In this document: piece after piece, positions 5,376 through 38,006 of the stretch
Numbering within the stretch: the first letter of the stretch is position 1
Layout of the letters: each line of letters opens with the position of its first letter
NCBI GenBank assembly: GCA_021324395.1
Contig: JAJPJG010000011.1
Location: forward strand, 62,001 to 126,000
From: Spartobacteria bacterium
GTDB lineage: Bacteria > Verrucomicrobiota > Verrucomicrobiia > Chthoniobacterales > Chthoniobacteraceae
Length of the DNA stretch: 64,000 nucleotides
Direction of reading: 5' to 3'
Notes under the pieces: model-generated
Databases searched by the model: none
Told to the model about the DNA's origin: nothing
Seen by the model: the letters and a program-made list of their open reading frames with translations, nothing else
Position numbers and translations under genes: made by a program

Positions 5376-5380
5376 CGTGT

Positions 5381-9458: not shown

Positions 9459-12400
9459 ATGTCCCCCCGCGTCCATCGCGCATGCATCCTTTTGCTCGCG
9501 CTCCTTTTCGCTGTCGCCAACGCGCGCGCGCTGGATGCGACGAGCACGGTTTTCATCATCCTTTTTGAAAACCACACGTGGGCCGACATCAAGGGCAGCG
9601 CTGACGCGCCTTACATCAACAACACACTGCTGCCGATCTGTTCGTATGCGGAGCAGTATTACAATCCGAACGCGCTGCATCCGAGCGAGCCGAATTATCT
9701 CTGGCTCGAGAGCGGCACCAACTTCGGCGTTTTGAACGACAACGCGCCGTCGTCGAATCACCAAAGCTCGACGAATCATTTCGTCACGAAATTGCGCGCG
9801 GCAAACATCTCGTGGAAGACGTATCAGGAAAATATCAGCGGCAGCAATGTGCCGACGACGGACAGTTATCCCTACGCGGTGCGGCACAATCCGTTCGTCT
9901 TTTTCGATGACGTAACGTCGGACTCGAGCTACGCGATCGCACACATCCGGCCATTCACCGAGCTGGCGACCGACCTCGCGAACAACACGCTCGCGCGCTA
10001 CAATTTCATCACGCCAAACGTGTATGACGACATGCACGACGCGAACACGTCGGGGCTCAACAACACGGTGAAGCAGGGCGACGCGTGGCTTTCGCAAAAC
10101 CTGCCCGCGATCTTGAATTCGCAGGCGTATCAAAACGGCGGGCTCGTCATAATCGCGTTCGACGAAGCGGAGGGCGGTGGCGACGGGCCGATTCCATTTT
10201 TGCTGTTGTCGCCGCAGGCGCGCGGCGGTGGTTATCACAATGCGATCCGCTACACGCACAGCTCGACGCTGCGGACGCTGCAGAAAATTTTCGGCATCAC
10301 GCCGTATCTCGCCGATGCGACAAACGCGAATGATCTCGGCGATTTATTTGTGAACGGCGCGATTCCAAACGCGGATGCCGCTCCGGCGATTTCCGCCGCT
10401 TACGCGACAACGATCACGAGCGGCAGTTCGACTCTGACAGCAAACGTAAATCCGAATGGCGACGCGACGAGCGTCTGGTTCGAATACGGCACGAGTGCGA
10501 GCTACGGCAGCAACACGAAAACGAGCGCGGCGGATGATGCGGAGAGTTATTCCGGCTGGGCTTACGGCAACAACGGCGGCAGCGGATTCGGCGCGGCGCA
10601 TTATCTCGAAGGCACCGGCGGCGGCTTGTTCCTCGCGAACTCGGGAAATGGAAATCGCCAGATCGATGGCGCGAAATCGTTCGGCGTTTTCGCGGGCGGC
10701 GGAACCAACAACACACAGGCGATGGATCGGCAAATTCTCAACGCACAACCGGCGGCCACGCTGACGCTGTCGATGCGCTTCGATGTCACCAACACGGTTG
10801 CGTTTTCCGGCTTCAATTTGAAAAGCGCGGAGGGGACGACCTTCGGCACGAGCGAACTGATTTCCGTCGGCATTCGCCCCGGCAACGGCAACAACAGCAT
10901 CGCGGTGAACGGCGGCGCGCAGACGATCAATCTCGGCTCGGACATTCGCGGCGCGGTCATCGATTTCAACCTGACGTATGACTGCGTTGCCGGCACCTAC
11001 ACGCTCGGCGCGAAGTTCCGCGCGAGCACGAGCTACACGACGGTAAGCGGGCCGCTGAAAATCGTCGGCCAGACCGCGGCGTATCTCGGCTTCGGCAATT
11101 TCAACACCGGAAACAACCAAAACCTGATCGCTGACAGCATCTCGCTCACGACCACGGCATCGGCTGGAAACGGCTCCAGCACTGCATCGGCGAGCATGAA
11201 CATCAGCGGACTCGCCGCGAACACCACGTATCATTTCCGCGCAGTCGCGCAAAACAGTCGCGGCACCACATTCGGCGCGGACCAGACATTTGGTTACGCG
11301 CTCACACCCGCGGCGAACGCGCCGTTTGATTCGTTTTCGTCGGGAAATTTCCAGGCGCGCATTTTTGACGACACCGGCCACATCGCGATCGCCGAACCGG
11401 ATCTCAGTGGCAACGCGCTCGCGAATATCATCACGTTCGCGCCGCCCGCGGTGAAGATCGGCGGCGCGAGTTACGATCTCGGTCGCGTCATTTCGAGCGG
11501 CACCATCGCGAATGGATTGCAGCTCGTGCAATCGCTCGCCGGCACAAATGTAACCACGCAGGTTACATTTCCGAGCGACGGCGTGATGCATTACGAAGTC
11601 GTGAACTGGAACGGGCTCGCGCCGACGGAAACCGACATCAGCGCGGCATCCGACAGCAGCGAACATTTCTTCGGCTTCGGCGAAAAATTCAACGCGCTCG
11701 ATCAAGCCGGAAACAAAGTTCACATGCTCACGCTCGACAATCCGGGCACGAAAGGCGACGCGAGCTACAAGCCGGTGCCGTGGTTCATCAGCACGCGCGG
11801 GTATGGATTCCATCTAGATTCGACGGCGGAGAGCTACTTCGACATGCGCAACGGCGCGTCCGACCGCTACACCGTTCAGAATCTGCTCGGCACGCTAAAG
11901 TTTAACATCGTGTCGGGACCGAAGCTCACCGACGTGCTCACGCGCTATACCGGCTACACGGGCCGGCCGTATCTGCCGCCGCAATGGGTTTTCGGCACAT
12001 GGATTTCATCGGACATCTGGCGCACCGGCGGCGAAGTGCGCTACGCCGTGACGAAACATCTCGCGCAGGGCATTCCCGCGAGCGTGTTCGTTTTCGATTC
12101 GCCGTGGGAAACAGGCTACAACGATTTCAACTGGAACATGACGCAGTTCGGCAACGGCGGCACTTACGAGGGCGTGAATTACAGCGGCTTCACGTCGGTG
12201 AGCGACATGATGAATTTCTTCCGCGCAAACGGATTGAAAGTCATCTGCTGGATGACGCCTTTCATCAACACGAGCTCCGTCAGCGATGGCGTCGGCGGGC
12301 AAAACACGGGACAGGCGAGCAATTACGCTGCGGGCAGCGCGAACAATTATTTTGTGCGTAGCTCCGTGAACGGCTCGCCGCTCGTCGTGAACTGGTGGAA

Positions 12401-14924: not shown

Positions 14925-17792
<2,868 letters not shown>

Positions 17793-17981: not shown

Positions 17982-19145
17982 TTACACCGAGCGGCAGAAC
18001 TCCTCGAACCGGTCGAGGCCTGTCTTGATAATGTCGATGCTCGTGGCGTAGCTGAAACGCACCGTGCGGTCATCGCCAAAGGCGATGCCGGGAACGACTG
18101 CGACGTTGGCCTTGCTCAACAGGCGATCGGCGAAGTTCTGCGACGTAAGCGAGAAGCGGCTGATGTTTGCGAGGATGTAGAATGCGCCGAGCGGCTTCAC
18201 GGCGGTGACGTTCGGGATCTTCGAGAGACGGTCGAACATGTAATCGCGGCGGAGATTGAACTCGTCGCGCATGTCGGAGACCGGCTGCTGGTCGCCCTTG
18301 AGCGCGGCGAGCGCGCCTTTTTGCGCAAAGGAATTCGGGTTCGACGTGCTGTGGCTCTGGATGGAATCGATGGCTTTCGCAATCGAATCCGGCGCGCCGA
18401 GATAGCCGAGGCGCCATCCGGTCATCGCGTAAGCTTTGCTGAAGCCATTGACGGTGATGGTGAGATTGTAAGCTTCCGGCGAAAGCGATGCGACGCTGAC
18501 GTGCTCCGCGTCATCATAGGTGAGCTTTTCGTAAATCTCGTCGGAGAGAATGAGGATGTCTTCCTCGGCTGCGACCTCGACGATTTTCTCGAGCTCTTCG
18601 CGGGTGTAAACGGCGCCGGTCGGATTGCCGGGCGAATTGAGGATGACCATCTTCGTGCGCGGAGTCATCGCGTTTTCAAAATCCTCCGCGCTCATTTTCC
18701 AGCCGCTCTGCTCGGTCGTCGGCACGAACACCGGCTCGGCTCCGGCGAGGCGGACCATTTCCGGATAGCTCAGCCAATACGGCGCCGGAATGATGACTTC
18801 GTCGCCCGGCTCGCAGGTCGCGAGGATGGCGTTGTAGCACGATTGCTTTGCGCCGTTGCTGACGATGATCTGGTGCGCCTTGTAGTCGAGTTTGTTGTCC
18901 GTGGAAAACTTCTCGCTAATCGCGGTGCGCAACTCGGGGATGCCGGAGCTGGGCGTGTATTTGGTAAAACCACTGTTGATCGCCTCGATGCACGCGGCCT
19001 TGATGTGATCGGGCGTGTCGAAGTCGGGCTCGCCCGCGGCGAAACCGCAGATATCGATGCCTTCGGCTTTCATCGCCTTGGCTTTGCTGTCGATGGAAAG
19101 CGTGAGGGACGGGGTGAGACTATTGGCGCGTGATGAGATGGACAT
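17982..19145 (-). CDS. aspC: Aspartate aminotransferase (class I PLP, Ib subgroup)
   Basis: A 387-residue fold-type I aminotransferase, probably aspartate:2-oxoglutarate aminotransferase, possibly also using aromatic or prephenate substrates like other Ib enzymes. PLP lysine is K237 in NGFSKAYAMTGWRLGY. Other conserved positions are N174 (NPTG), D202 and Y205 in SDEIYEKL, and R245 in the WRLGY motif. Length and N-terminal SLTPSLTLSIDSKAKAM fit the family. The ATG start is followed by a clean N-terminus. It lies 30 bases downstream of the nucleoside-diphosphate kinase gene on the same strand. Confidence 0.92.
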   Translation of the reverse strand: MSISSRANSLTPSLTLSIDSKAKAMKAEGIDICGFAAGEPDFDTPDHIKAACIEAINSGFTKYTPSSGIPELRTAISEKFSTDNKLDYKAHQIIVSNGAKQSCYNAILATCEPGDEVIIPAPYWLSYPEMVRLAGAEPVFVPTTEQSGWKMSAEDFENAMTPRTKMVILNSPGNPTGAVYTREELEKIVEVAAEEDILILSDEIYEKLTYDDAEHVSVASLSPEAYNLTITVNGFSKAYAMTGWRLGYLGAPDSIAKAIDSIQSHSTSNPNSFAQKGALAALKGDQQPVSDMRDEFNLRRDYMFDRLSKIPNVTAVKPLGAFYILANISRFSLTSQNFADRLLSKANVAVVPGIAFGDDRTVRFSYATSIDIIKTGLDRFEEFCRSV

Positions 19146-26237: not shown

Positions 26238-27821
26238 ATGAGTGAGCCGAAATTTCCGACGCCCGAGGAACTGCAGCAAAAGATTTCCGAATTTATGAAG
26301 ACACAGTTCGGCGGCAACGTTTCCGTCTCCACGCACGTCGCGACGGAACCGGACGGCGCGCCGACCTATGATTTCGAAATGGACGACGATTTTTTCGAGT
26401 TCGACTATCTGCCGCGCGACATCAAGGCGTATCTCGACCGATTCGTCATCAAGCAGGATGAGGCGAAGAAGGTGCTCTCGATCGCCGTCTGCGATCACTA
26501 CAATAACGTGAATTACATGCATCGGCTCAAAAAGGAGAGCGCGCAGAAGGCGTATGAAACCGAATACGCGAAGCAAAACGTGATTCTCATCGGACCCACC
26601 GGCGTCGGAAAAACCTATCTCATCAAACACATCGCCGACCTGATCGGCGTCCCTTTTGCAAAAGCGGACGCGACGAAATTCAGCGAGACCGGCTACGTCG
26701 GCGGCGATGTCGATGACCTCGTGCGCGAGCTTCTTCGCCAGGCCGACGGCGATATAGCGATCGCGCAATATGGCATCATTTACATCGACGAGATCGACAA
26801 AATCGCGGCGATGCAAAACCCGACGGGGCGCGATGTCAGCGGACGCGGCGTGCAGACGGCGCTGCTGAAATTGATGGAGGAAACCGACGTGCCGGTGCGC
26901 AATCCGATGGACCTGCAGGGTCAGCTCCAGGCCGCGCTCGAGTTTCAAAAATCGGGCGGAAGACCGCAGCCCCAGACCATCAACACGCGGCATATTCTGT
27001 TCATCGTCAGCGGCGCATTCGACAAACTCAAGGGCGTCATCCTGCAACGCGTGAAACAGTCGCGCATCGGCTTCGCAGCGGAGCCCGCAGGCTCGCTTGA
27101 CGACGCCGGCCTGTTCCGCCGGGCCACGACGCGCGATTTCATCGACTTCGGTTTCGAGCCGGAATTCATCGGCCGCCTGCCCGTCCGCGTCGTCTGCGAG
27201 GAACTCAACGTCGCCGACCTTTTCGAAATCATGAAGCGCTCCGAAGGCAGCATCATCCGGCAATACGAGCGCGCGTTTCAGGCTTACGGCATCGAGGTTG
27301 CCTTCGAGGACGAAGCGCTGCGGCGCATCGCACAGCTCGCCGCCGAGGAGAAAACCGGGGCGCGCGGTTTGTTAACCGTCTGCGAGCGCATCCTCCGCCA
27401 GTTCAAATACGAGCTGCCCGGCTCCGGCGTCACACGATTCAACGTCGATGCCGACCTCATCGAACAGCCCGACGCGACGCTGCAAAAACTGCTCGCACTC
27501 GGCCACGCGGAAAAAACGAAAGCGCACGCCGCGGTCGCGCGCGATTTCGCGCGGCAGTTCACGGAAAAACACGACGTCCGCATCAAGTTCAGCGACGACG
27601 CCATCGCGCGCCTCGTCGCCGTCGCCGATTCGGAAAATGTGGAAATGCTCGATCTCTGCGAGCGACTTTTCAAAGACTACGAATTCGGCCTAAAGCTGGC
27701 CCGCGGCAGCGGCAAAACACTCATCCTCACCGCCGACGCCATCGACAGCCCCGACAAATTCTTAAGCGACTGGCTCGTAAAAACCTTCCGCGGCACCCCG
27801 CCCGAAGACACACCTGCATAG
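26238..27821 (+). CDS. ClpX-like AAA+ ATPase without zinc domain
   Basis: A 527-residue AAA+ protein of the ClpX/HslU group. Walker A GPTGVGKT is at 119-126, Walker B IYIDEIDK at 181-188, sensor/arginine-finger region EFIGRLPVRVV near 308, and a C-terminal AAA lid (TGARGLLTVCERILRQFKYE). It lacks the N-terminal four-cysteine zinc domain of true ClpX. Instead it has an acidic leader (TYDFEMDDDFFEFDYLPRD) and about 100 extra C-terminal residues. It has no obvious IGF/LGF ClpP-docking loop that I can point to. It is probably an unfoldase paralogue rather than the housekeeping ClpX. Confidence 0.8.
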   Translation: MSEPKFPTPEELQQKISEFMKTQFGGNVSVSTHVATEPDGAPTYDFEMDDDFFEFDYLPRDIKAYLDRFVIKQDEAKKVLSIAVCDHYNNVNYMHRLKKESAQKAYETEYAKQNVILIGPTGVGKTYLIKHIADLIGVPFAKADATKFSETGYVGGDVDDLVRELLRQADGDIAIAQYGIIYIDEIDKIAAMQNPTGRDVSGRGVQTALLKLMEETDVPVRNPMDLQGQLQAALEFQKSGGRPQPQTINTRHILFIVSGAFDKLKGVILQRVKQSRIGFAAEPAGSLDDAGLFRRATTRDFIDFGFEPEFIGRLPVRVVCEELNVADLFEIMKRSEGSIIRQYERAFQAYGIEVAFEDEALRRIAQLAAEEKTGARGLLTVCERILRQFKYELPGSGVTRFNVDADLIEQPDATLQKLLALGHAEKTKAHAAVARDFARQFTEKHDVRIKFSDDAIARLVAVADSENVEMLDLCERLFKDYEFGLKLARGSGKTLILTADAIDSPDKFLSDWLVKTFRGTPPEDTPA

Positions 27822-27924
27822 CCGAGGCCGCCGGGGCGACACTCCATCCAGCCTCACCGCGGCTTCCACCGGAGTGATCGAGCTATAGTAGCTTTACCTG
27901 TTGGTCGCTGCTCTCAGCCTTCGC

Positions 27925-28020
27925 TTTCTGGAAGTTCAAATCCGGCGCGTGGTCATCGCCACCATCTGCCGAGAAAAAGGACACGACATCGACGCCGCCT
28001 GCGGGCAGTTGCGGCTATAG
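27925..28020 (+). pseudogene. Remnant of the rlmN 3' end
   Basis: A frame ending in TAG at 28018-28020 reads RRVVIATICREKGHDIDAACGQLRL. GHDIDAACGQLR is the characteristic C-terminus of RlmN, the 23S rRNA A2503 / tRNA A37 methyltransferase. Only about 30 residues are recognisable; an in-frame stop lies upstream at 27889-27891, and the radical-SAM core is absent. It sits at the junction between GC-rich core genes and the AT-richer block that follows, so it may be a scar of rearrangement or insertion. Confidence 0.6.
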
Positions 28021-28053
28021 ACGCAAAGGGAGATGCAGACGGCTTAAACATTG

Positions 28054-28069
28054 AAGATAGTTCTATCTT
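28054..28069 (-). terminator. Hairpin after the 4-TM protein gene
   Basis: AAGATA (28054-28059) pairs with TATCTT (28064-28069) around a four-base loop, directly abutting the stop of the minus-strand gene. No U-run follows on the minus strand, so termination is only a possibility. Confidence 0.3.
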
Positions 28070-28948
28070 TTACTTTAAGAGTTTTTCGTATTCGATGAGC
28101 ATCCGTTTAACCCCATCCCGGTATTCGTCGATTTTACGTATAATTCCACCTATCAAAAAAAGTGCCACTACGCTAATTGTTAGCACAATCCAGACATAGT
28201 AATTTTCAGTGGGGTGTTTTAGAGAGAAGCCAGGAGGACGAAATGGCGAATACCCCCACTGCAAAAAACAAAACTGCACGATGCCGCTAAAGGCGATTGT
28301 TGCTACAGGTAAAAGACCGAGCCCTTTGTAAGCAACTCTTATAAAAGGGAAAGCATGTCCTTTATTACTTTCGTCATAGTTGAAACTGCTATAGGCCGTA
28401 TCATCGTCCGTCAAATGAGTAAAAACTAGGTTTCCAGCGATCCCGTGAAAAACAAAACGTATTGTTGCTTTATCACAAGATGCAGTATCTCGGAGTAAAG
28501 AGTGCACACTGTGGTTCTCACGCCGAGAACACCAAAAGAACCAGATCATAGTAATCGTGAGGGCACAGCTCGCGAGCAATGTCGCATCACTGGTGCTAAC
28601 TCTCACACCTAGTAAACTTGAAGAGATTTGCTGGTTCTGCACCCATTGATCCAGCCAACGCTGCTGTAAGTATGAAGTGATTGGATAACTTTCTGCTAGG
28701 CTTCGCTCAGCTGTGTAGTTAATCGGATAGCCATTTCTATCTTTCACATCTTGATTAAGGATTGATGAATTCCAGAAGCGGTATCTGCCAAAATCCCGAT
28801 CCCAAGAAAAATAAGCATTAACGATTCCGAGAATAATGGACACCGAAATTACCGTCGCGACAAAAAAGGCAATCCGGGATCGTGTAAGACAGTCTTTAAT
28901 ACCATCCAGCCGAATCTGCAGTGTAGCTTTTAGATCAATTGTTTCCAT
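28070..28948 (-). CDS. Four-TM protein of unknown function
   Basis: A 292-residue protein with about four hydrophobic segments: near 26-48 (FFVATVISVSIILGIVNAYF), 125-143, 215-235 and 250-272. A soluble loop of about 75 residues lies between the first two segments (FGRYRFWNSSILNQDVKDRN onward). The C-terminus is a charged helix, KIDEYRDGVKRMLIEYEKLL. I recognise no family. The coding DNA is AT-rich for this window (22 G+C in the 60 bases 28141-28200), which suggests different ancestry from the flanking core genes. It is the last gene of the minus-strand accessory block, separated by 117 bases from the chitosanase-like gene. Confidence 0.6.
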   Translation of the reverse strand: METIDLKATLQIRLDGIKDCLTRSRIAFFVATVISVSIILGIVNAYFSWDRDFGRYRFWNSSILNQDVKDRNGYPINYTAERSLAESYPITSYLQQRWLDQWVQNQQISSSLLGVRVSTSDATLLASCALTITMIWFFWCSRRENHSVHSLLRDTASCDKATIRFVFHGIAGNLVFTHLTDDDTAYSSFNYDESNKGHAFPFIRVAYKGLGLLPVATIAFSGIVQFCFLQWGYSPFRPPGFSLKHPTENYYVWIVLTISVVALFLIGGIIRKIDEYRDGVKRMLIEYEKLLK

Positions 28949-29065
28949 GCTCGCATTCTTACAGCTTTTACTACAATCGGGTTGAGTTTTTACGCAGTCT
29001 AGCGATCCTTATTGCATCCACTCAACTGGCATTGTATTCGATCGCTATAGATAGTGGCATGCCTA

Positions 29066-29974
29066 TTAAGCTATCGCTAGCGATTGCACAGTTTCAGGTT
29101 CCAGTCCAGCAAGTAACTTTTCGGTCCGCCCACTGATACCTTCGAACGAAGCAGGAAACACTCCATCTCGCGAATTTGGAAACACGATATAGCGAATATA
29201 GGCTTTCTCCGTTCCGCCGTTGCGCGGACTGCAATGGTCATTCCCAAGCAACTCACGCGCTGTTGCAATCGAAGCTTCGCCGATTTTGTGTTTCGGTCCC
29301 GCATCTGCAACAATTGCAGCGATACGTTTACCCGTGCGAGTGTTAATTACTATCGCATAATCTCCCAAGCTGGCATTACCGAGGTGTCCACCAGGAAGAA
29401 CGATGTAGGGAATCGACTCGGCATCCACGTAACGCCGCGGATCCGTTTTCGGACGCGTTAAATCCTGAAGCGACGTTGTTGAAATGTAATAACCCGGTGC
29501 AGGATCACCATCCTTTTGCTCGATTGGTTTTCCATTTCCATCGGTCAACACTCCGACCCAGTTGCCATTTTGATCCTTCCCGTTCTGATCATAATCCAAT
29601 CCATCATTACCATCTTTGTAAGCACGGAAAGCCCCATCGGCATCGATTTCCATACCAGCCGTATAATAAATCACTCTTCCATCTGCTGTTTGAAAAATTG
29701 TAGAGTCGCCGATGTGGTCAAGGGCTCCATCCCCCATTGGAGGCACATCTTCTGGAATCGCAAAACTGAACTTACCCGCCGCAGCATAGGTATTTGGTCC
29801 GACAACACCGTCGTCTCCAAGCCCTTCACGACGTTGAAACTGAATGGTTGCCTGTTGTGTCCCGAGCTCAAAATCGCCGTCAACGGGACCAGGATTAAAA
29901 CCCTGTTCGCTTAAGAATTGTTGCCATGCGGCAACATCACCGCCCTTTGTTCCGATAGTTAGGATTCTGCTCAT
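29066..29974 (-). CDS. Peptidoglycan-binding GH75 chitosanase-like protein
   Basis: A 302-residue protein. Residues 5-66 form a PG_binding_1 domain (DVAAWQQFLSEQGFNPGPVD, DDGVVGPNTYAAA). A linker IPEDVP (73-78) leads into a GH75 chitosanase-like domain (about 86-285). That domain shows GMEIDADGAFRAYKD, LDYDQNGKD, GYYISTTSL, RYVDAESIPYIVLPG, LGDYAIVINTRTGK and VADAGPKHKIGEASI. GH75 enzymes cut chitosan; with the peptidoglycan-binding domain the target could also be a de-acetylated cell wall. No signal peptide is visible, which is odd for such an enzyme. The ATG start at 29974 gives the complete first domain. Confidence 0.8.
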   Translation of the reverse strand: MSRILTIGTKGGDVAAWQQFLSEQGFNPGPVDGDFELGTQQATIQFQRREGLGDDGVVGPNTYAAAGKFSFAIPEDVPPMGDGALDHIGDSTIFQTADGRVIYYTAGMEIDADGAFRAYKDGNDGLDYDQNGKDQNGNWVGVLTDGNGKPIEQKDGDPAPGYYISTTSLQDLTRPKTDPRRYVDAESIPYIVLPGGHLGNASLGDYAIVINTRTGKRIAAIVADAGPKHKIGEASIATARELLGNDHCSPRNGGTEKAYIRYIVFPNSRDGVFPASFEGISGRTEKLLAGLEPETVQSLAIA

Positions 29975-30033
29975 AGTTTATAGTGATTTTGTTTAATGTG
30001 TTTTGTGTTAAGATTGCATTTGCAATATTATGC

Positions 30034-31173
30034 CTAGTTGGTTTTTTCCGGGACCTTAAAACCGATATAGGTTCCACCGCTAATACCCATGAGTCCCAAC
30101 ATTGTCGCCGAGATTTCAGGCATGGCCAATGAATGATATACGCTATGCACGAATATTATCCCAACAATCAGGGTCCACGCCGCGATTTGGAATCGGTGAA
30201 AGCTGATACCACCACCATCACTAACCAAGTCCCACAAAAATCCACGGCTTGCCGATGGTTGAAGTAATTCATTTAGTCGCGCTATTTCCTCGTTTGCTTC
30301 CTCAAGCTTCGCTTGCTCCTCTGGAGTCCGATTATTACTTGCGTTCAAGGTTTTGCTTATTCTTGTAAATTCGTCCCTTTTGAGTCTAGCACCGGTGTTC
30401 TTAGCCGCATCCACCATGACGGCGGCAAAGCCCGTTGCGGCACTAATCCCTATCAAACCCAATACAGACTCCGTGACTGTATCTGTATCTCCGGTGACCA
30501 TGAAAATGAAAAGGTAGGCTGCAATGGTAATAAACAGCCAAAATGCCATTTGCGTGCGAGCCAAGCTAAAAGGTTTGTTTCCTTCAGGCAGACAGGCGCC
30601 ATCGTCCCTCAGTAAATCCGTTTTCCATCCCATCAAAAACAATAATATTGCAAGGGCTATCATTGACCAAAACCACCCCCATAACCATCCGCGGTAGATA
30701 ACGCGCATCTCCAATTTTACATTGGTAATTAGTGGTAGCTCCCCTTTACGGCCAAGTGTAACATCCACTTTGGGCCAGTCTTTCCCGAGAAACTGAAGCG
30801 TTGGGCACAATACTCGGTTCCACGCATCCCGACTATCCGCTTTGGTCGAATCTCTTGAAAGGATTACGCTAATCCAATCATCCGCAAGCTTGCTTAGGAT
30901 GATTTCAGCATCTGGTATCAATATCCCGCCAACATACACCTGCAATTCCTTTTGAGGATTTTGTTGCTGCCATTCCTTCAACCCTTTGCCGTGAAGTGTA
31001 ATCATTCGATCGAGGCCAATGAAGCCTTCGCCTTCCGTAATTACCGGTGGAGCTAATGGCTGTTTTTGATCTTCGGCCATCCCCATTAGGGACCAGGCCA
31101 GCAGCAAGGTTACAACAATAACGAGCCTTGGTCTTTTTTGAGACAACGTGGCCGTGATGAAATGTGCGAGCAT
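30034..31173 (-). CDS. Membrane protein with two matching transmembrane repeats
   Basis: A 379-residue protein. A signal-like hydrophobic N-terminus (about 15-31) precedes an extracytoplasmic domain with beta character (33-160). Then comes a membrane part containing an internal duplication. Residues 202-250 (FSLARTQMAFW to LGLIGISAATGF) align with 324-371 (SFHRFQIAAW to LGLMGISGGTYIG) at a constant offset of 121, keeping R206/R327, Q208/Q329, A210/A331, W212/W333 and LGLxGIS. A charged coiled-coil helix (about 285-304) separates the two repeats. I have seen similar RTQMAFW-type repeats in uncharacterised proteins of soil bacteria but know no function. Confidence 0.65.
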   Translation of the reverse strand: MLAHFITATLSQKRPRLVIVVTLLLAWSLMGMAEDQKQPLAPPVITEGEGFIGLDRMITLHGKGLKEWQQQNPQKELQVYVGGILIPDAEIILSKLADDWISVILSRDSTKADSRDAWNRVLCPTLQFLGKDWPKVDVTLGRKGELPLITNVKLEMRVIYRGWLWGWFWSMIALAILLFLMGWKTDLLRDDGACLPEGNKPFSLARTQMAFWLFITIAAYLFIFMVTGDTDTVTESVLGLIGISAATGFAAVMVDAAKNTGARLKRDEFTRISKTLNASNNRTPEEQAKLEEANEEIARLNELLQPSASRGFLWDLVSDGGGISFHRFQIAAWTLIVGIIFVHSVYHSLAMPEISATMLGLMGISGGTYIGFKVPEKTN

Positions 31174-31180
31174 AGCTTTC

Positions 31181-31921
31181 TTACTGATACGGGACAGAAA
31201 TTGACTTTTGATAACGTAAGGGTTGAAGAATCGGAAAGCTCGTCGCGGCGCTTGCCCAAGGCCACCAGCTTCGTTCCTTCACCGGCCAGCAAGAAGGCGC
31301 AGAGTAACCTTTATCTTTTAATCGTGAAATGAGATAGTCACTAATGTCGACCACTGCAGTGCAGCTTACCGGCTTCTTTCCCAAAAGCTGGCTGGTAAAT
31401 CGTATCGTGAGCTTCCGATTCCGTTGGATTCCCCCGATAAAGGTATCCCATGACAGGTAATTCCGTCCCGGGTCCTCCCGCGTCGTGCGAGCCGCAAAGT
31501 AGGTGCTATGACTGGTTTCGCTCCCTCCGTTCACCGCAAAAGGGGCGGCATCGACGGCGTCATGTGCCGTTAACGCACCTTCGAATGTAGTAAAGGTGAC
31601 AAACTCCTGCCACTTGTGCTCATAGCTCCTGCCGTTGCAATCAAAGCACAATGCCTCACTCGTGATCACTGCATTGTAGCCGGGTTGACCATCGTTCACA
31701 TAAGACATACTTGTCGAAAACCGCGGCGAATTGCTGTCCTTATCCCGAATAATCAGCACTTGCTCCGGTGGAAACATCGTCACGTGCGCGCCCCTGACAA
31801 AACTCCAGACCGAACATGCAATACCGACGACTGACAAAAGAAATGCCGCCAAGGCCAGAACGTCCGCCTCCGGCTTGATCGTAAACTTCCACCGCAGGTT
31901 CTTTGGGAGATCGTCACTCAT
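31181..31921 (-). CDS. Membrane-anchored protein of unknown function
   Basis: A 246-residue protein with one N-terminal membrane anchor (about 20-43, DVLALAAFLLSVVGIACSVW) followed by a soluble, probably beta-rich domain (MFPPEQVLIIRDKD, FSTSMSYVNDGQPGYN, KLTIRFTSQLLGKKPVSC). Four cysteines occur in the outer domain. No family recognised. It starts inside the stop of the small lipoprotein gene (ATGA overlap) and ends seven bases before the next gene, so it is part of a tight operon. Confidence 0.6.
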   Translation of the reverse strand: MSDDLPKNLRWKFTIKPEADVLALAAFLLSVVGIACSVWSFVRGAHVTMFPPEQVLIIRDKDSNSPRFSTSMSYVNDGQPGYNAVITSEALCFDCNGRSYEHKWQEFVTFTTFEGALTAHDAVDAAPFAVNGGSETSHSTYFAARTTREDPGRNYLSWDTFIGGIQRNRKLTIRFTSQLLGKKPVSCTAVVDISDYLISRLKDKGYSAPSCWPVKERSWWPWASAATSFPILQPLRYQKSISVPYQ

Positions 31922-32247
31922 TGAATTGCAGGTCTTGGGACATCCTCCGGAATCGCAGATGGCGGTGGATCCGCCGGAACAGCACCTACAGGCGGAATAT
32001 CCTCCGAGACGGATGCCGGAGCGCGGCCCATCGGTTTGGCCATCATTTGCATTTTATACGGTCCTTCTCGCGAAGTTTCTTCAATCGGCCGATGCCTGTA
32101 ACGTGGCTCGGCATAATAAGAGCCATTCGACCTGCTGCTTGCACTTTCTTCATACGTCCCGCATCCCGTCAGCCCGAGCATTATCACCAGAAAAAGGATA
32201 AAATGTGTCTGGTTGGTGATTCGAACATCTGAAGATTGGTTAGCCAT
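31918..32247 (-). CDS. Small Pro-rich lipoprotein
   Basis: A 109-residue protein with a hydrophobic segment and lipobox LTGC (C29), so it is likely lipid-anchored. After a Ser/Tyr/Arg stretch, the C-terminal third is Pro-rich and contains EDIPPVGAVPADPPP and IPEDVP. The IPEDVP hexamer also occurs as the linker of the GH75-like protein two genes downstream. Its stop overlaps the next start (ATGA). No known family. Confidence 0.6.
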   Translation of the reverse strand: MANQSSDVRITNQTHFILFLVIMLGLTGCGTYEESASSRSNGSYYAEPRYRHRPIEETSREGPYKMQMMAKPMGRAPASVSEDIPPVGAVPADPPPSAIPEDVPRPAIQ

Positions 32248-32263
32248 AAATCTTAGTCAGCTT

Positions 32264-33190
32264 CTATCCGAGCGTTACACTCACCGCCGCGCTGCGCGCG
32301 CTTTCGCCGGCGGCGTTGTAGGCGGTGACTTGGAAATGGACGGTGGCCTTTGCCGGAAGGTTCTCCAGCAGCACCTGGGTCTCGGTCGTGAGATCGAGCG
32401 GCGCGAAATCCGAGTCCACGCCTTCGACTTTCTTGAAAGGCCGATACTTCTCCGCGCGCGGACTTGCAGCCCAGCCGAACGCGATCGCATTCGCGCCGAC
32501 CTGATGGCCGCTCACCCCATCCGGCACCCCGGGCGCGGAACTGCCCGCGGGCGGCACGAGGCCAAAGTAGTAATAGAACGCGCTTTCATCGGGCAGGATG
32601 GAGTAAAGCTCGTTGATGAGCCCGCTCATCGCGTTGCGCAGATCGGCGATGGCGAAATCGCGCGCAGCCTTTGCCTGCACCCGCGCCGCCACCATCCCAT
32701 TGAGCGCGGTGCGCGCGCCATCGAGCGCGTCGTAGAGTTCGCCCGCGTGGGCGGAGGTAAAGGCGAGGTCATCGTTGGTGAACTGCTTGCCGAGATTCGC
32801 CGTGAGATAATCGCGAATGCCGGCGAGCACCTGCGCGCGATCCTCCGGCGAATCGGGCATCGCGGTCGTGCCCGGCTTGTAGCCGATGGCTTCCCAGTCC
32901 TTCGACGGAGCGCTGCCGAACGCTTTGACGAAAATGCTCTTTACCGACGCGATGAAGCCTTTCGCATTCGAGTTGGCAATGTTACGCGCAGTCGTGCCAT
33001 CGCGCTCCCCCTTTTGCGCCGCGTCATAGGTGCTCTGCGCCGTAAAGGCCGCGCCGAACTTCGCCTCCATCACATCCTTCGTCCATTGCTTCACACCGAT
33101 GGCGACGCCTTTCTTATCGAGGCCATCGATCATGTCCTCGCAGAGGGAAAAGAGTTTGTCGTTGGGATCAGGGAGGCGATTGCCGGTCAT
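32264..33190 (-). CDS. Helical protein with C-terminal Fn3 domain
   Basis: A 308-residue protein. The first about 210 residues are predicted largely helical (NRLPDPNDKLFSLCEDMIDG, AQVLAGIRDYLTANLGKQF, LYDALDGARTALNGMVAARV). The last about 85 form an Fn3-like domain ending FQVTAYNAAGESARSAAVSV. There is no signal peptide or membrane segment. GC content is high again here. The ATG start overlaps the stop of the upstream 14-residue-repeat gene (ATGA), coupling the two. Similar helical-Fn3 proteins occur in Verrucomicrobia without assigned function. Confidence 0.65.
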   Translation of the reverse strand: MTGNRLPDPNDKLFSLCEDMIDGLDKKGVAIGVKQWTKDVMEAKFGAAFTAQSTYDAAQKGERDGTTARNIANSNAKGFIASVKSIFVKAFGSAPSKDWEAIGYKPGTTAMPDSPEDRAQVLAGIRDYLTANLGKQFTNDDLAFTSAHAGELYDALDGARTALNGMVAARVQAKAARDFAIADLRNAMSGLINELYSILPDESAFYYYFGLVPPAGSSAPGVPDGVSGHQVGANAIAFGWAASPRAEKYRPFKKVEGVDSDFAPLDLTTETQVLLENLPAKATVHFQVTAYNAAGESARSAAVSVTLG

Positions 33191-33657
33191 AGCGGTTTTT
33201 CGGGTTTCGAGTTTTGGTTTTTCATAAAAAGGAAGGTCGTCTGGAGATCACTCACCTTGTCTTGAGATGCGTCGGAGTCGGTTTGGGCGATGTGCAAAAC
33301 GCCGGACACGACGCGGCTGTCGCTTTTTAGACAGGCAAAATCGGCGGACACGGCGTCGGAATCGCTTTTGGACATGCCGAAATCCTCAGCCACGGCGGAG
33401 AAACCACTTTTCGGGATGTCAAAAAGCCCGGACACAGCCGTGGCGACACTTTTGCCGATGTGCTTTTTCGCCGACACACGCGTGGCCGCAGTTTTCGGGA
33501 TATGCTTTTGGGCAGCAACCGCGGTTTGCACAGTTTTCGGCATCTGCTTTTCGGCGGACACGGCGCCGGTCGCACTTTTCGACATCACCGAAATCGCCGC
33601 CACGGCCTTCGTTCGGCGATTTACTCTGGTGAAAGGAGTCCGGGCATCAGTGCGCAT
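33187..33657 (-). CDS. Protein built of eight 14-residue repeats
   Basis: A 156-residue protein whose centre is eight consecutive degenerate 14-residue units: MSKSATGAVSAEKQ, MPKTVQTAVAAQKH, IPKTAATRVSAKKH, IGKSVATAVSGLFD, IPKSGFSAVAEDFG, MSKSDSDAVSADFA, CLKSDSRVVSGVLH and IAQTDSDASQDKVS. The consensus is (M/I)xK(S/T)xxxxVSxxxx. A regular hydrophobic spacing suggests a stacked or amphipathic fibre. No known family. The antisense strand is also open, but the ATGA overlap with the downstream gene and the strand of all neighbours favour this strand. No ribosome binding site is obvious. Confidence 0.6.
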   Translation of the reverse strand: MRTDARTPFTRVNRRTKAVAAISVMSKSATGAVSAEKQMPKTVQTAVAAQKHIPKTAATRVSAKKHIGKSVATAVSGLFDIPKSGFSAVAEDFGMSKSDSDAVSADFACLKSDSRVVSGVLHIAQTDSDASQDKVSDLQTTFLFMKNQNSKPEKPL

Positions 33658-33755
33658 CGAGTTAGAGCAGTGTTTCTGGCGGGAACATCCCCGCCGCCAG
33701 ATTGGCAGGCATGGCTGGAAAAGGCTGGGTCATTGAAGGGAACTGGTGCGTGCGA

Positions 33756-34346
33756 TTACCAAAGGCCCACGGCAGCGGGAAAGACGATGTCGTTGCCATC
33801 CCAGCTATTGTTAATCGCCGGAAGCTGCACGATCCCGGCATTGGGTTTGAACTGCTGGTATTCCGCAAAACCGGTGGATTGGGCGAGCCAGCCGGTCTGG
33901 GCGAGGCCCTTGGACGTCAAAATCCGGCAGGTGCGACCGGAACCGTAAACGCTGGACACATAACCAGCCGGCTGAATCGCGGCCTGAAATGCCATCATGT
34001 AATCTGAAATGCGTCCGTTGATCGTAGGGCCGGTGGCGTCGGAGTCGTCCGGATCGTAATCCACGGTGGCATAAATTTGCGTGCCGGCTGGCTGGCCTAG
34101 TGACTGGGCATATGCGGCGGCGGCGTGGCCGTCCACAGTGCCCTGGTTAACCGTGAAATAGTCATCGCGGATCGGATAGCCCTTTTCGTAGATGGACCAG
34201 ACCTGAAGGGTGGCGTTGCGGAGTTCCGCGATCATCGCAGCGTCGCAACGATCCGGCCTGAGGTAAATGCCAACGGCGATGTAGCCGGCATTGGCAAGAT
34301 GCTGAGCCTGCCCTGTAGTCTTGGAAGAGGAGTCGAGTGCTTTCAT
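33756..34346 (-). CDS. DUF1906 (glycoside hydrolase-like) protein
   Basis: A 196-residue protein matching DUF1906, a TIM-barrel domain related to GH25-type lysozymes and found in mycobacterial Rv2525c. Typical features are the start MKALDSSSKT with an early Asp (D5), GYIAVGIYLRP, VWSIYEKGYP, IYATVDYDPDD, and the later WLAQSTGF and VQLPAINNSWDGN. The domain makes up the whole protein, and no signal peptide is present. By analogy it may bind or cut cell-wall glycans, but catalysis has not been established for the family. Codons here are of intermediate GC. Confidence 0.75.
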   Translation of the reverse strand: MKALDSSSKTTGQAQHLANAGYIAVGIYLRPDRCDAAMIAELRNATLQVWSIYEKGYPIRDDYFTVNQGTVDGHAAAAYAQSLGQPAGTQIYATVDYDPDDSDATGPTINGRISDYMMAFQAAIQPAGYVSSVYGSGRTCRILTSKGLAQTGWLAQSTGFAEYQQFKPNAGIVQLPAINNSWDGNDIVFPAAVGLW

Positions 34347-34421
34347 AGTTATGGGTGTGTAGCGATGGCTTGTGAAGGTTATGAACGGTGCCTTGCAACT
34401 CGGTGGGTGAGATTCAAGCCG

Positions 34422-34580
34422 TCATGGTTTTTGGAAAATGACGACGACATCACCTGTGCTGGTCTCAAAGGCCGCAGCAAGCGCATAACCTGCGTGTGCG
34501 GGATCCCCAAGGAAGGTGTTGATCTTGGCTTCGATTTGGCCGGAATCGGCGGCATTGATGCGTTTCACGATGACATTCAT
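34422..34580 (-). CDS. 52-residue protein coupled to the lipoprotein gene
   Basis: A short frame from ATG (34578-34580) to TGA (34422-34424). It begins MNVIVKRINAADSGQIEAK and ends GDVVVIFQKP. The gap to the upstream lipoprotein stop is five bases, and strand and spacing fit the operon. The sequence is a plausible small alpha/beta fold (strand-helix-helix-strand) with no membrane segment. No family recognised; no clear ribosome binding site, so translation probably depends on coupling. Confidence 0.5.
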   Translation of the reverse strand: MNVIVKRINAADSGQIEAKINTFLGDPAHAGYALAAAFETSTGDVVVIFQKP

Positions 34581-34585
34581 AGAAG

Positions 34586-35326
34586 TTATAACGCTGGCAG
34601 CGTGCTTAATTGTTCATTGGTGGCTTTGGCCTTTTGTTTTGCTTCGGCATTGGCTTTGTCTTTGCCGGACTCCTTGGAAAGGTTGGCCAGACCGCTGGTA
34701 AGCGTTCCAGCGTCGTAGTAACGAATGATGTCGCGCAGCCCCGCCTCAAGAGGATACTCCGTGGTGCCTTGCTCCTTCATCTTTTTGATCATCTCCGTAG
34801 CTATATCGGCTCGAGCGGCATCCATCTGGAGGCGAACGGCCTGGATAGTATTGCCAAGGAGAACGTTGGAATCGATCGATTTACTGACTCCTTGCGCCGC
34901 CGTGGAGATGGCCGAAAGAACTGTCTTGAGTTCCTTTGCGCCAGCTGCTGTCGAAGCCAAGCTCGTGCCTAACCCTAAAGTATCGGTAAAGATATTCTTC
35001 CCCGAGATATCTGCGCGTAGCTCAAAGGTATAGCGATAATAGTAGTCATCCACCATACCCATCAACTCATAGAGAATGCGATTGCGAACGGAGTTGGAGT
35101 AACCTGATCCAGCATACGCAGCTTTGAAAAATGGCTGGGCAGGCGTGCTCTGGGCTGGATCATAGCTGTAAGTGAGCACTTTTTCTGGATGCGGATTGCT
35201 ATGCATCTTGCGATAGGTAAAAGCTTGGTGTGCGCCGGCGGTCGAACATCCAGTCGAGAAGGCGGCACACGAAATCATCGCGACGGCAATTAAGAGTGAT
35301 TTTATTTCAGGTAGGGACGTGGTCAT
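34586..35326 (-). CDS. Lipoprotein of unknown function
   Basis: A 246-residue protein with signal sequence and lipobox FSTGC (C27). The mature domain shows YRKMHSNPHPEKVLTYSYDP, VRNRILYELMGMVDDYYYRYT and a helical stretch ending KESGKDKANAEAKQKAKATN. It resembles no family I can name; the central YELMGMVDDYYxxYxxxL pattern could serve as a search seed. The ATG is directly preceded by five AACC units (on the coding strand). The nearest Shine-Dalgarno-like AGAGG lies upstream of those repeats. Confidence 0.65.
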   Translation of the reverse strand: MTTSLPEIKSLLIAVAMISCAAFSTGCSTAGAHQAFTYRKMHSNPHPEKVLTYSYDPAQSTPAQPFFKAAYAGSGYSNSVRNRILYELMGMVDDYYYRYTFELRADISGKNIFTDTLGLGTSLASTAAGAKELKTVLSAISTAAQGVSKSIDSNVLLGNTIQAVRLQMDAARADIATEMIKKMKEQGTTEYPLEAGLRDIIRYYDAGTLTSGLANLSKESGKDKANAEAKQKAKATNEQLSTLPAL

Positions 35327-35346
35327 GGTTGGTTGGTTGGTTGGTT
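35327..35346 (-). repeat. Five GGTT/AACC tetranucleotide repeats abutting a start codon
   Basis: Five perfect GGTT units on the plus strand (AACC on the coding strand) lie immediately before the lipoprotein ATG at 35326. An AGAGG ribosome-binding-like sequence sits on the far side, so a change in unit number would change the spacing to the start codon. Confidence 0.85.
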
Positions 35347-35364
35347 AGATGAGTCCTCTAAGAG

Positions 35365-36330
35365 CTATGGTTTCTGCATCGCATTCAGCACTTCCAGGAT
35401 GACTTCGGTAAAATGGGCGACGACCTTGCCGAAGCCACCTACACTGGGATGAAGTTCATTAGCCCAGTCCGCGGTGTTTTGTTGCAGGATGCCGCGGCAG
35501 TCGATGTGGTAAACAATACCGGGATTGGCTTTGGCCAAGTTTTCAATGGTCTCGTTGAGCATATTGATAAGTGCCCGGATGACCTTGTAGCGTTCGATGT
35601 CGGGCCAAATGCGGTTACGCGCGAAGGCTGGCAAAAGCCAGGGACCTATAAAATGGAATCCCAGCGGCGCACGAAGAACCGCCCGACCATCGGGCATAGC
35701 GTAGTCGTAACCGTGGATGAATATCTTGATGTCCGGCTTTGCTCCTTTGACAGCGTCGATAATGGTCTGCATCGCCTTCGAGCAGTAGTTCTGGAACGTA
35801 TCCAAGGCGCGCGCGGTTCTAAGCGGCGCTTCTCCGGATGAGGCATGATTGAGGAAGAACTCCAGCTCCACGCCATCGCTACCAGCCATGTCATTACCGC
35901 CCGCGGAGAGCAGGAAGAAATCGGGCCGGTGTTGCCGGATGGCATCGAGCGTGGTGAGGAGCTGGCAGGGCACCGGTTGTGCATTCGGGCCCAGGTCGGT
36001 TCCATAGGCCATGTTTTCCAGAGTGTCGCCGGCCTTAGCTAAATTGAAGATATGGAACTTACCGGTTTGATGGAGCTGAGCGAGTAGATCGCCTTTGAAA
36101 GGGTCTTCCAAAAAGGCGGGAAGATAATCGAACCATGAATCTCCCTCCGAGACTCCGACCCAAGCCTGCTCGTCCCATGACTTCGCTGCCTCGGCGTCGA
36201 TTCTCTTTTCAAAGGTAGCGTTGCCGGTTTGATACATTGTCTCCCGTGCTTCAGGAGTAAGATCAGCCAGGATGGTCTTTACTCGCGAAAAGGGTTGCTG
36301 CGGAACTAGGAAACTAGGCGAAAAGGACAT
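35365..36330 (-). CDS. SGNH/GDSL-family hydrolase
   Basis: A 321-residue protein with the SGNH blocks: block I GDS (63-65, nucleophile S65) in EGDSWFDYL, block III GGND (144-147), and a late ELHPS (292-296) in the position of the catalytic DxxH, with H294. Family members are esterases, lipases or carbohydrate deacetylases. No signal peptide is visible. The ATG at 36330 was chosen: the frame stays open far upstream, but that part is Arg/Pro-rich nonsense overlapping the protease gene. The start lies five bases from the protease stop, so the two are in one operon. Confidence 0.8.
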   Translation of the reverse strand: MSFSPSFLVPQQPFSRVKTILADLTPEARETMYQTGNATFEKRIDAEAAKSWDEQAWVGVSEGDSWFDYLPAFLEDPFKGDLLAQLHQTGKFHIFNLAKAGDTLENMAYGTDLGPNAQPVPCQLLTTLDAIRQHRPDFFLLSAGGNDMAGSDGVELEFFLNHASSGEAPLRTARALDTFQNYCSKAMQTIIDAVKGAKPDIKIFIHGYDYAMPDGRAVLRAPLGFHFIGPWLLPAFARNRIWPDIERYKVIRALINMLNETIENLAKANPGIVYHIDCRGILQQNTADWANELHPSVGGFGKVVAHFTEVILEVLNAMQKP

Positions 36331-36335
36331 AATGA

Positions 36336-37172
36336 TTACTCCACCACGCGGATGGTCCAGAAGTCGTCGCTGAGGCCTGCGTCCAGGAGGTAGGCGTAGG
36401 GCATGGTGAAGTAGCCTTTTTTGCCCCAGCCGTGGCCCCAGCTGTTGCGGACGATGAAGCGTTGCTCGGTGTCGTCGTAGCCTACGGCCATGACGGCGTG
36501 GCCGCCTTCGTAGGCTTCGTTGGGTGCGGGCATGTTTAGGATGCCGGTCTGGCGGACTGTCTGGCTCATGAAGCCGGCGTAGACGGTGAAGCCGAGGACG
36601 AAGGGGTAGCCGTCGGCGATGCAGCCTTTCATCTGGCCGAGGTCGCGGTTGACGCGCTGGTAGCTGACGAGCTGGAATTTCAGGGCGTCGCGGTAGCAGG
36701 TTTTCGATGGCTGCTGCGCGGGTTTCGCGCCGGCGGGCCAAAGGTCGCTGGCGGGATCGGCCGGGGTGTCGTCGTAAGGCCACTCGGTCTCGGGGCAGAC
36801 GCCTTGCTTGGCGACGGTCTTGATGCCGTCGCGGATTTGAGCGCCGGCGTCGCTGGCGATGGTGTGCTCGATGGCGCGTTCGTTATAGTAGATGAAGAGG
36901 CGGGAGGGGACGAAGTCGTCGAGCTGCTGCTTCTTGCGGTCGAACTCGATGGCGGCTGCGATGGCATTGGCGGTGCAGGAACCGATGCGGCCCTGGGTGT
37001 AAACGGGCGGGCAATGTTTGCGCAGGTTCCACTTTGCGGGGAGCGGTTCCTTGGCGGTGAGCCTGGCGAGCGGCGCGGCGTAGACGTGGTCGCGGTGATC
37101 GGGGACATCGGGGATCCAGCCGAGTGCGGTGGAGATGCTGTTCTGTTTTTTCGAGGGGCGTTTGGCCGGCAT
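36336..37172 (-). CDS. Papain-family (C1) cysteine peptidase
   Basis: A 278-residue peptidase with the papain active site: Q60 and nucleophile C66 in TQGRIGSCTANA, H225 in GGHAVMAVGYDD, and N243 in VRNSWGHGWG. A short N-terminal part (LGWIPDVPDHRDHVY) replaces the long inhibitory propeptide of eukaryotic relatives, as is usual for bacterial members. No signal peptide. It is the first gene of the minus-strand accessory operon and faces the regulator gene across a region with three GGGAAAACCCT-type sites. Confidence 0.9.
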   Translation of the reverse strand: MPAKRPSKKQNSISTALGWIPDVPDHRDHVYAAPLARLTAKEPLPAKWNLRKHCPPVYTQGRIGSCTANAIAAAIEFDRKKQQLDDFVPSRLFIYYNERAIEHTIASDAGAQIRDGIKTVAKQGVCPETEWPYDDTPADPASDLWPAGAKPAQQPSKTCYRDALKFQLVSYQRVNRDLGQMKGCIADGYPFVLGFTVYAGFMSQTVRQTGILNMPAPNEAYEGGHAVMAVGYDDTEQRFIVRNSWGHGWGKKGYFTMPYAYLLDAGLSDDFWTIRVVE

Positions 37173-37208
37173 GCGTGAATTGCTAGCCTGGCGCGAAAAC
37201 GGCGGTAG

Positions 37209-37275
37209 TAGGGAAAACCCTATTTTGTCAAAGTGAAAACCCTGTATTTATCATTGCACCCTAGGGGAAAACCCT
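37209..37275. promoter_or_regulatory. Three phased GGGAAAACCCT-type sites
   Basis: Copies of G(G/T)GAAAACCCT begin at 37211, 37233 and 37265. Copies 1 and 3 are inverted repeats with a four-A centre (TAGGGAAAACCCTA and AGGGGAAAACCCTTT); copy 2 keeps only one arm. Start-to-start distances of 22 and 32 bases are close to two and three helical turns, placing all on one DNA face. They lie between the divergent protease operon and the response regulator, so they are likely binding sites. Confidence 0.6.
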
Positions 37276-37379
37276 TTAAACACGAATTTAACGTGCTGGA
37301 TAAGCTGTCTTTTCGGTGCGTTTTTTTTGGAGACAGCATTGTGAGTCACACTTTTTAAATCGAATGAAAGGTGCAGCAG

Positions 37380-38006
37380 ATGAGCAAACGCGTGATCATC
37401 GCCGATACGCATACGGCGGTGCGGGAGATTTTTTCCTCAATCCTCACGAATGAGTTTGGCCTGAAGATCATTGCCCAAACGGATTCGGGACTGGAGGCGC
37501 TGAAACTCTGCCGGGCGCATCGGCCCGACTTGTTGATCATCGACGCGCAGTTGCCGGGATTCACGGGCGCGGATGTGGTGGTGCGGGTGCGGAGGGAATT
37601 GCGCGGGGTGCGCGTGCTGGTGTTTGCGAGCAGCTGCGAGCCGGGTGTGATTACCGATGTCTTGAAAGCAAAGCCGCACGGGTTCGTCTCGAAATGCGAT
37701 TCGCTGCAGACTGTGCGCGATGCCGTGGGCGCGGTGTTGCGCGGGTGCAGTTATTTTACGCCGTTTGCCTCGCAGCTTTTGTTCGAGCCCGAGAGCAAGC
37801 GCCGCAACACGGAGTTGTCGCGACGCGAGCGTTCGGTTTTGCAATTGATCGCCGAGGGATTGAGCACAAAGGAAATGTCGGATCGTCTCGATATTTCGAT
37901 CAAGACCATCGAGGCCGTGCGGGCGAACATCAAAACCAAGCTGCGCTTGAATACGACCGCTGCGTTGACGCGCTACGCGGTGCGCGCGGGGCTGGTCGAC
38001 AGCTAA
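37380..38006 (+). CDS. NarL/FixJ-type response regulator
   Basis: A 208-residue two-component regulator. Receiver domain: D9 in the acidic pocket (VIIADTHT), phosphoacceptor D55 in LLIIDAQLPG, S84 in the switch position, K105 in GFVSKCD. LuxR-type HTH at about 146-205 (LSRRERSVLQLIAEGLSTKE, ISIKTIEAVRANIKTKL). I chose the ATG at 37380, which has AAAGG eight bases upstream, over the GTG at 37371. No histidine kinase is adjacent. The divergent position next to phased palindromes makes it the best candidate regulator of the accessory operon. Confidence 0.88.
   Translation: MSKRVIIADTHTAVREIFSSILTNEFGLKIIAQTDSGLEALKLCRAHRPDLLIIDAQLPGFTGADVVVRVRRELRGVRVLVFASSCEPGVITDVLKAKPHGFVSKCDSLQTVRDAVGAVLRGCSYFTPFASQLLFEPESKRRNTELSRRERSVLQLIAEGLSTKEMSDRLDISIKTIEAVRANIKTKLRLNTTAALTRYAVRAGLVDS

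Follow-up and report, generated by a model that had tools for sequence, protein, structure and literature searches.

Genes whose products break the bacterial envelope have been described in several kinds of assembly: the lysis cassettes of phages, comprising holin, endolysin and spanins; the effector-immunity islands of type VI secretion systems (T6SS) and extracellular contractile injection systems (eCIS), with their Tle lipases and Tae and Tge wall hydrolases; and polymorphic toxin and related predicted conflict systems. In addition, Rv2525c-like barrels are reported to occur with wall and lipid enzymes (lipocone paper, PMC12419801). Here we compare with these systems a block of twelve genes at positions 28070-37172 of a 64,000-nucleotide window of DNA (contig C23, positions 62001-126000) from the genome of a Spartobacteria bacterium (GenBank GCA_021324395.1; G000, about 92% complete). 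In Spartobacteria-type Verrucomicrobia there appears to be a family of mosaic, horizontally shuffled cassettes, of which the block is one version. That this family is a real, recurrent unit we consider highly probable; that its members are regulated, polymorphic cassettes for envelope demolition, used in biological conflict for self-lysis or for attack, is a reasoned guess that we place close to even, slightly on the doubtful side. The individual parts are of known kinds, and in the libraries and literature searched we found no description of their assembly, which is to that extent uncatalogued.

All twelve minus-strand open reading frames (ORFs) listed in a preliminary description made from the sequence alone were recovered, and are designated g01 to g12 (Table 1). 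Its families were likewise borne out by Pfam (Peptidase_C1, Lipase_GDSL_2, DUF1906, and PG_binding_1 with Glyco_hydro_75), the fn3 match being weak, as were its two lipoproteins (g03, g08), its hydrolases devoid of a hydrophobic N-terminus, and its 14-residue repeat (in g06), for which nucleotide identity at lag 42 is 0.50, against 0.275 +/- 0.022 in codon-shuffled sequence. The short spacing it noted comprises ATGA overlaps at g06/g07 and g08/g09 and gaps of 5 bp (g01/g02 and g03/g04), 7 bp (g09/g10) and 16 bp (g07/g08), the remaining gaps being 38-117 bp. The block is a mosaic, since its GC content drops along its length from 64% in g01 to 43% in g12. Rfam gave no match in window positions 27000-38000, and promoter and terminator scans gave matches no more frequent than in shuffled sequence.

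Among 97 related genomes, genes for the papain-type protease, for the membrane protein g10 (mem2) and for a short GH75 hydrolase co-localise. Counting the source genome, relatives occur in five genomes for g10, sixteen for the papain and two for the SGNH esterase, and for the DUF1906 protein in the source genome alone. Searches throughout the order yielded about 15 further cassettes, all different, the named cassettes being L017, L015, L063, L126, L124, L168, L170, L171, L182 and L184. They draw on a common pool: a xylellain-like papain; esterases or lipases (SGNH, DUF900, Lipase_3, patatin); signal-less wall hydrolases (short GH75, DUF1906, M15, amidase); and lipoproteins, small tail-anchored and multi-transmembrane proteins and a helical-Fn3 protein (hFn3; g07 in the window). 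Thus genome G072 carries, in a single run, papain, short GH75, mem2, a lipoprotein and a DUF900 hydrolase; G096 carries mem2, helical-Fn3, an M15 peptidase, GH75, p190 and a membrane patatin; and G025 carries papain, Lipase_3, a lipoprotein, a small tail-anchored protein, TM411, helical-Fn3, TM354 and a 301-aa ORF whose resemblance to a lysozyme-like barrel is by eye only, with no Pfam match. Two of these three loci are public contigs of Spartobacteria metagenome-assembled genomes (MAGs). Locus L126 combines Lipase_3, a lipoprotein, a small protein, GH75, p190 and mem2, and L168 combines TM411, Lipase_3, a lipoprotein, a small protein, papain and GH75. Gaps of 4-12 bp, such as that of GH75-p190, occur in held-out loci (see below); lipoprotein genes adjoin lipase genes in several cassettes and, in loci having the small tail-anchored protein, directly precede its gene. 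Degenerate or broken parts were seen in L015, L125, L129, L130 and L124 and, together with the mosaic GC content of 43-64%, are consistent with rapid turnover. In L170, genes with SLATT (DUF4231), TIR and TPR-S/MAP3K_TRAF_bd domains (5132-6583 and 9986-11389) are interleaved with the cassette genes on the opposite strand; such TIR, SLATT and TPR-S neighbors are parts of predicted conflict systems.

Co-occurrence was assessed with a library of parts built from the window and early loci; as four loci had also supplied library parts, only the held-out figure was used. At least one further part lay within about 8 kb in 11 of 20 held-out loci anchored on GH75, and all of these further parts (32/32) were on the same strand; a non-anchor part was found in none of 20 control windows (308 kb). 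The control windows had papain, mem2 or a housekeeping gene as their anchor; they were not drawn at random, their solitary appearance being part of the reason for choosing them, and the genomes are related to one another, so the result is strong support for co-occurrence in excess of chance rather than a formal probability. The preliminary description had proposed a module, to be abandoned if homologues were always single; instead papain, GH75, mem2, helical-Fn3 and esterase or lipase genes recur together, co-directionally, at many unrelated or re-used sites, although papain and mem2 are also solitary in many relatives.

One such site lies between ribBA/p278 and deoA/Gfo-Idh/lpxB; its cassette differs among G072, G518, G064 and G046 (one family), and one-sided flanks place cassettes of G530, G079 and G534 at the ribBA-deoA site too. 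Two remnants of the deoA 3' end lie in or beside the cassette of L168 (4573-4908 and 9873-10166) and may be a sign of how cassettes insert; a comparable remnant, from the 3' end of rlmN, lies at the left border of the block and is a scar of insertion or rearrangement. On contig C15 of the source genome an intact rlmN adjoins an adenylate-cyclase-like gene whose relative stands after an AAA gene in G007, an arrangement pointing to an old rearrangement. In an attempted empty-site comparison at the AAA/regulator junction, the nearest relatives differed in downstream order. These borders, together with the mosaic GC of the block, the one site of differing contents, the DUF1906 match confined to the source genome and the many loci with papain or mem2 alone, would also be expected under accretion without common function, in which hotspots gather mobile accessory genes and the shared strand reflects selection against head-on genes or read-through. 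Accretion is harder to reconcile with the meeting of the same few families at several unrelated sites on a single strand, with the 4-12 bp gaps, with the fixed succession of lipoprotein and small tail-anchored genes, and with the finding that the usual island cargo (integrase, restriction enzymes, transport) is not mixed in; we regard it as unlikely, yet as an explanation to be taken seriously.

A gene for a LuxR-type response regulator stands divergent from the first enzyme gene in five cassettes (L063, L126, L168, L184 and the window). Since L126, L168 and L184 share one ancestral site, these represent three independent regulator contexts. The window regulator, divergent from g01, has 40.7% identity to that divergent from the papain gene of L063 and likely controls the block; with five cassettes abutted in this way, the earlier proposal that the module is regulated is plausible. 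Regulators in L126 (2266-2934), L168 (4937-5737) and L184 (13062-13886) have, by eye, Gly at the usual phospho-acceptor Asp position.

The wall hydrolases are akin to phage endolysins. In two prophages of the source genome the short GH75 gene is the endolysin gene, beside terminase or portal-like genes, and further short GH75 genes are carried by tailed-phage contigs; g05 matches a PHROG endolysin family (2.6e-19), and g11 matches a PHROG endolysin mainly through its peptidoglycan-binding domain. Given the short GH75 in prophages and tailed-phage contigs and the peptidoglycan-binding domain fused in g11, peptidoglycan is a better guess than chitosan as the GH75 target. An attack on cell walls, as first suggested, is thus plausible, and chitin, the other target then put forward, is not supported; the earlier interpretation is supported in part. 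It had also judged a prophage unlikely: no integrase, capsid, tail or terminase match was found among the block proteins scanned with Pfam and PHROG, and the block is no prophage, but its wall hydrolases look phage-derived. A decayed and possibly domesticated phage lysis region, with endolysins and holin- or spanin-like proteins, would explain these endolysin matches and the resemblance of lipoprotein, small transmembrane protein and endolysin to a lysis cassette. Such a remnant would not account for protease, esterase and lipase genes, which are no standard lysis genes, and the block proteins scanned include no phage structural or integration protein; moreover, mem2 and hFn3 had no match in viral contigs, nor hFn3 in phage or plasmid records, which also led us to set aside carriage as phage cargo. 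We therefore hold the lysis-region remnant to be quite improbable. An anti-phage defence system of known type was likewise set aside, ten block proteins having no PADLOC match up to E=1. In two instances, cassette L171 (1.4e-19) and a Priestia plasmid, the papain gene is followed by a gene for a chagasin-type I42 inhibitor, a pairing to be expected if the protease endangers its maker.

Across cassettes, the hydrolases tested have no hydrophobic N-terminus, and the lipoproteins and membrane proteins have one. Enzymes without signal peptides sit uneasily with a role in housekeeping or nutrition (regulated wall remodelling, recycling, or digestion of neighbors' debris, with no weapon involved), as do their patchy, polymorphic distribution, their phage-endolysin relatives and a block that has neither transporters nor carbohydrate-use genes; the divergent regulator and the span of protein, ester and glycan bonds among the hydrolases would suit such a role, which we nonetheless judge improbable. 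The same missing signals, and enzyme classes that are also those of T6SS effectors (in L014 a Tle1-like lipase lies near mem2), would fit an island of T6SS or eCIS effectors injected into rivals, with lipoproteins as immunity proteins. Of 11 cassette-related genomes, 10, that of the source among them, lack the marker gp25 (PF04965; T6SS, eCIS and phage baseplates), and no VgrG, PAAR or Hcp partner was seen in the block; gp25 was the sole contractile-injection marker examined, sheath, VgrG and Hcp not themselves having been searched for. Because gp25 was not found, we consider such delivery very improbable.

Membrane passage may instead involve mem2, the most recurrent membrane component of the cassettes and the best candidate for a dedicated membrane step. 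Its core profile matches 18 of 213 genomes of the order; the short-GH75 profile has matches in many more, most of the weak ones being longer, different proteins. mem2 has no Pfam match, an AlphaFold2 model of it was unusable (predicted local distance difference test score, pLDDT, 47), and neither it nor hFn3 has a significant relative among solved structures. It stands alone in other genera, and cross-phylum relatives occur on Rhizobium and Polymorphobacter plasmids; that of the conjugative plasmid pRlX4 of Rhizobium ruizarguesonis (L087; CP140872, 6165-8213) has a long coiled-coil-like insert and lies near M23, DUF2272 and M15 wall hydrolases.

From these features we propose the following sequence of events for an envelope-demolition cassette. 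Transcription would probably start in the 198 bp that separate g01 from the divergent response regulator, and through this regulator a signal would induce the gene run. Protease, esterase or lipase and phage-type wall hydrolase(s), each potentially damaging to one envelope layer, would accumulate in the cytoplasm, and the lipoproteins and membrane proteins of the cassette would sit in the same envelope. A lesion in the membrane, or lysis, may then set the enzymes free to attack protein, ester-linked lipid and peptidoglycan; the envelope broken down could be the producer's own (suicidal or altruistic lysis) or that of its neighbors, and lipoproteins and inhibitors may protect or localise. A more specific version, in which the cassettes form a lysis system of a new class, interbacterial or suicidal, the regulator inducing protease, lipase and wall hydrolases and mem2 forming or gating the exit path of the signal-less enzymes, is a long shot.

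Several observations weigh against this proposal. Papain and mem2 are each also found singly amid housekeeping genes in many relatives, so that neither depends on a cassette; of the 20 held-out GH75 loci, nine lack companions, among them the two prophage genes of the source genome; and no relatives of g04, g08, g09 or g12 occur in other cassettes. The window itself has no recognised inhibitor or immunity gene and no I42-like motif. Neither g10 nor the small tail-anchored proteins match holin families, and a holin and spanin scan gave no match for g09, g10, g12 or the small tail-anchored proteins and lipoproteins of other cassettes, g08 being outside that scan. Finally, the genomes are mostly draft MAGs, in which some cassettes are cut by contig ends. 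If the proposal is true, a soil lineage possesses an uncatalogued, recombining kit for breaking several envelope layers at once, with a dedicated regulator and partly built from phage endolysins; it would be a new source of envelope-lytic enzymes and inhibitors, would give a function to the mem2 family, including its Rhizobium and Polymorphobacter plasmid members, and would be an instance, open to testing, in which bacterial conflict outside T6SS, eCIS and tailocins has recruited lysis genes from phages.

Some individual genes have further attributes. Residues 15-277 of g01 match xylellain (PDB 3ois; E=7.9e-83), and the catalytic Cys/His/Asn motifs QGRIGSC, GGHAV and NSWG, aligned with 3ois, are retained. 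The start of g02 was corrected to the ATG at 36330, replacing the GTG of a 472-aa open frame; its relative in G091 has 41% identity. A homologue of g03 lies within cassette L184 (1.6e-8). The AACC array directly upstream of g03, a possible slippage switch, is the sole perfect tetranucleotide array of at least 4 copies in the window and the 1.03 Mb of loci retrieved, and L016 has a shorter run of AACC units (15448-15459) ahead of the start of an exported protein. Also in L016, a 14-residue-repeat ORF comparable to g06 is followed by a helical protein, Fn3-like at its C-terminus, whose match to g07 is not significant (E 0.24); the shared order of repeat gene and helical-Fn3 gene is thus seen in two loci that have no significant similarity in sequence. 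The g07 model has pLDDT of about 90 over most of residues 31-180 and low values in the Fn3 part; relatives occur only in cassettes L063 and L064/L015, and a search of public contigs gave two loci only. Foldseek candidates for its helical bundle were unconvincing (best PDB E 0.038, the N-terminal coiled coil of RipA; best viral 0.0077). In L015 the intact helical-Fn3 gene has beside it a second, degenerate copy of its N-terminus (18528-18857). The transmembrane segments of g10 include a two-fold RxQMAFW / HRxQxxAW repeat. The GH75 catalytic domain of g11 scores 36.6 bits, against a curated cut-off of 27. Membership of g12 in the block is uncertain.

Table 1. Features of the block and its surroundings (window positions unless a contig is named).
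Feature	Position	Strand	Basis or remark
rlmN 3'-end remnant	27925..28038	+	left border of block; 82% identity over 91 bp to rlmN region on contig C15; tblastn 1e-10
g12, protein with four transmembrane segments, AT-rich (43% GC)	28070..28948	-	hydropathy
g11, peptidoglycan-binding domain and GH75-type hydrolase, 302 aa, no signal peptide	29066..29974	-	PG_binding_1 5e-13; Glyco_hydro_75 6.7e-9
g10 (mem2), N-terminal signal or transmembrane segment, extracytoplasmic part, four further transmembrane-like segments	30034..31173	-	hydropathy
g09, one N-terminal transmembrane segment, 246 aa	31181..31921	-	hydropathy; weak DUF7025
g08, Pro-rich lipoprotein, 109 aa	31918..32247	-	lipobox LTGC
g07 (hFn3), helical bundle and C-terminal Fn3, 308 aa	32264..33190	-	AlphaFold2; Pfam fn3 0.0016, weak, below cut-off
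g06, 14-residue-repeat protein	33187..33657	-	42-nt periodicity
g05, DUF1906/Rv2525c-like TIM-barrel lysozyme-like protein, 196 aa, no signal peptide	33756..34346	-	PF08924 4.2e-24
g04, 52-aa protein, no significant Pfam family	34422..34580	-	ORF
g03, lipoprotein, 246 aa	34586..35326	-	hydrophobic N-terminus then Cys
Five perfect AACC repeats directly upstream of g03 start codon	35326..35345	-	none expected in shuffles
g02, SGNH/GDSL esterase, 321 aa, no signal peptide	35365..36330	-	PF13472 Lipase_GDSL_2 1.1e-10
g01, xylellain-like papain-type (C1) cysteine protease, 278 aa, no signal peptide	36336..37172	-	PF00112 Peptidase_C1 2.8e-16
LuxR-type response regulator, divergent from g01	37371..38006	+	Pfam; outside 28070-37172
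Prophage region with short GH75 (L165)	G000:C19:1-12000		source genome
Prophage region with short GH75 (L166)	G000:C39:76000-95500		source genome

Set against the systems described above, the block resembles a phage lysis cassette in part: its signal-less wall hydrolases adjoin small membrane proteins and lipoproteins, and the short GH75 serves as endolysin in prophages of the same genome. It differs in adding a protease, an esterase or lipase and a divergent regulator of chromosomal type, and in having no recognised holin or spanin and no phage structural genes. With T6SS and eCIS effector-immunity islands the cassettes share the mix of lipase, protease and wall hydrolase, and their lipoproteins are placed as are the Tli immunity lipoproteins, which are encoded beside T6SS lipases; unlike those islands, they hold many enzymes in one operon-like run, and have mem2 where the islands have spike proteins. 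Parallels with polymorphic toxin and predicted conflict systems (PMC3482391) lie in effectors that recombine, in patatin and alpha/beta-hydrolase enzymes, in a candidate protease-inhibitor pair outside the window and, in the one locus L170, in the TIR, SLATT and TPR-S neighbors; the block enzymes, however, are separate, short and signal-less rather than C-terminal toxin domains on long secreted proteins, and no trafficking domain was found. Xylellain, finally, is a bacterial papain-type protease that g01 matches, but g01 stands in a multi-enzyme cassette.

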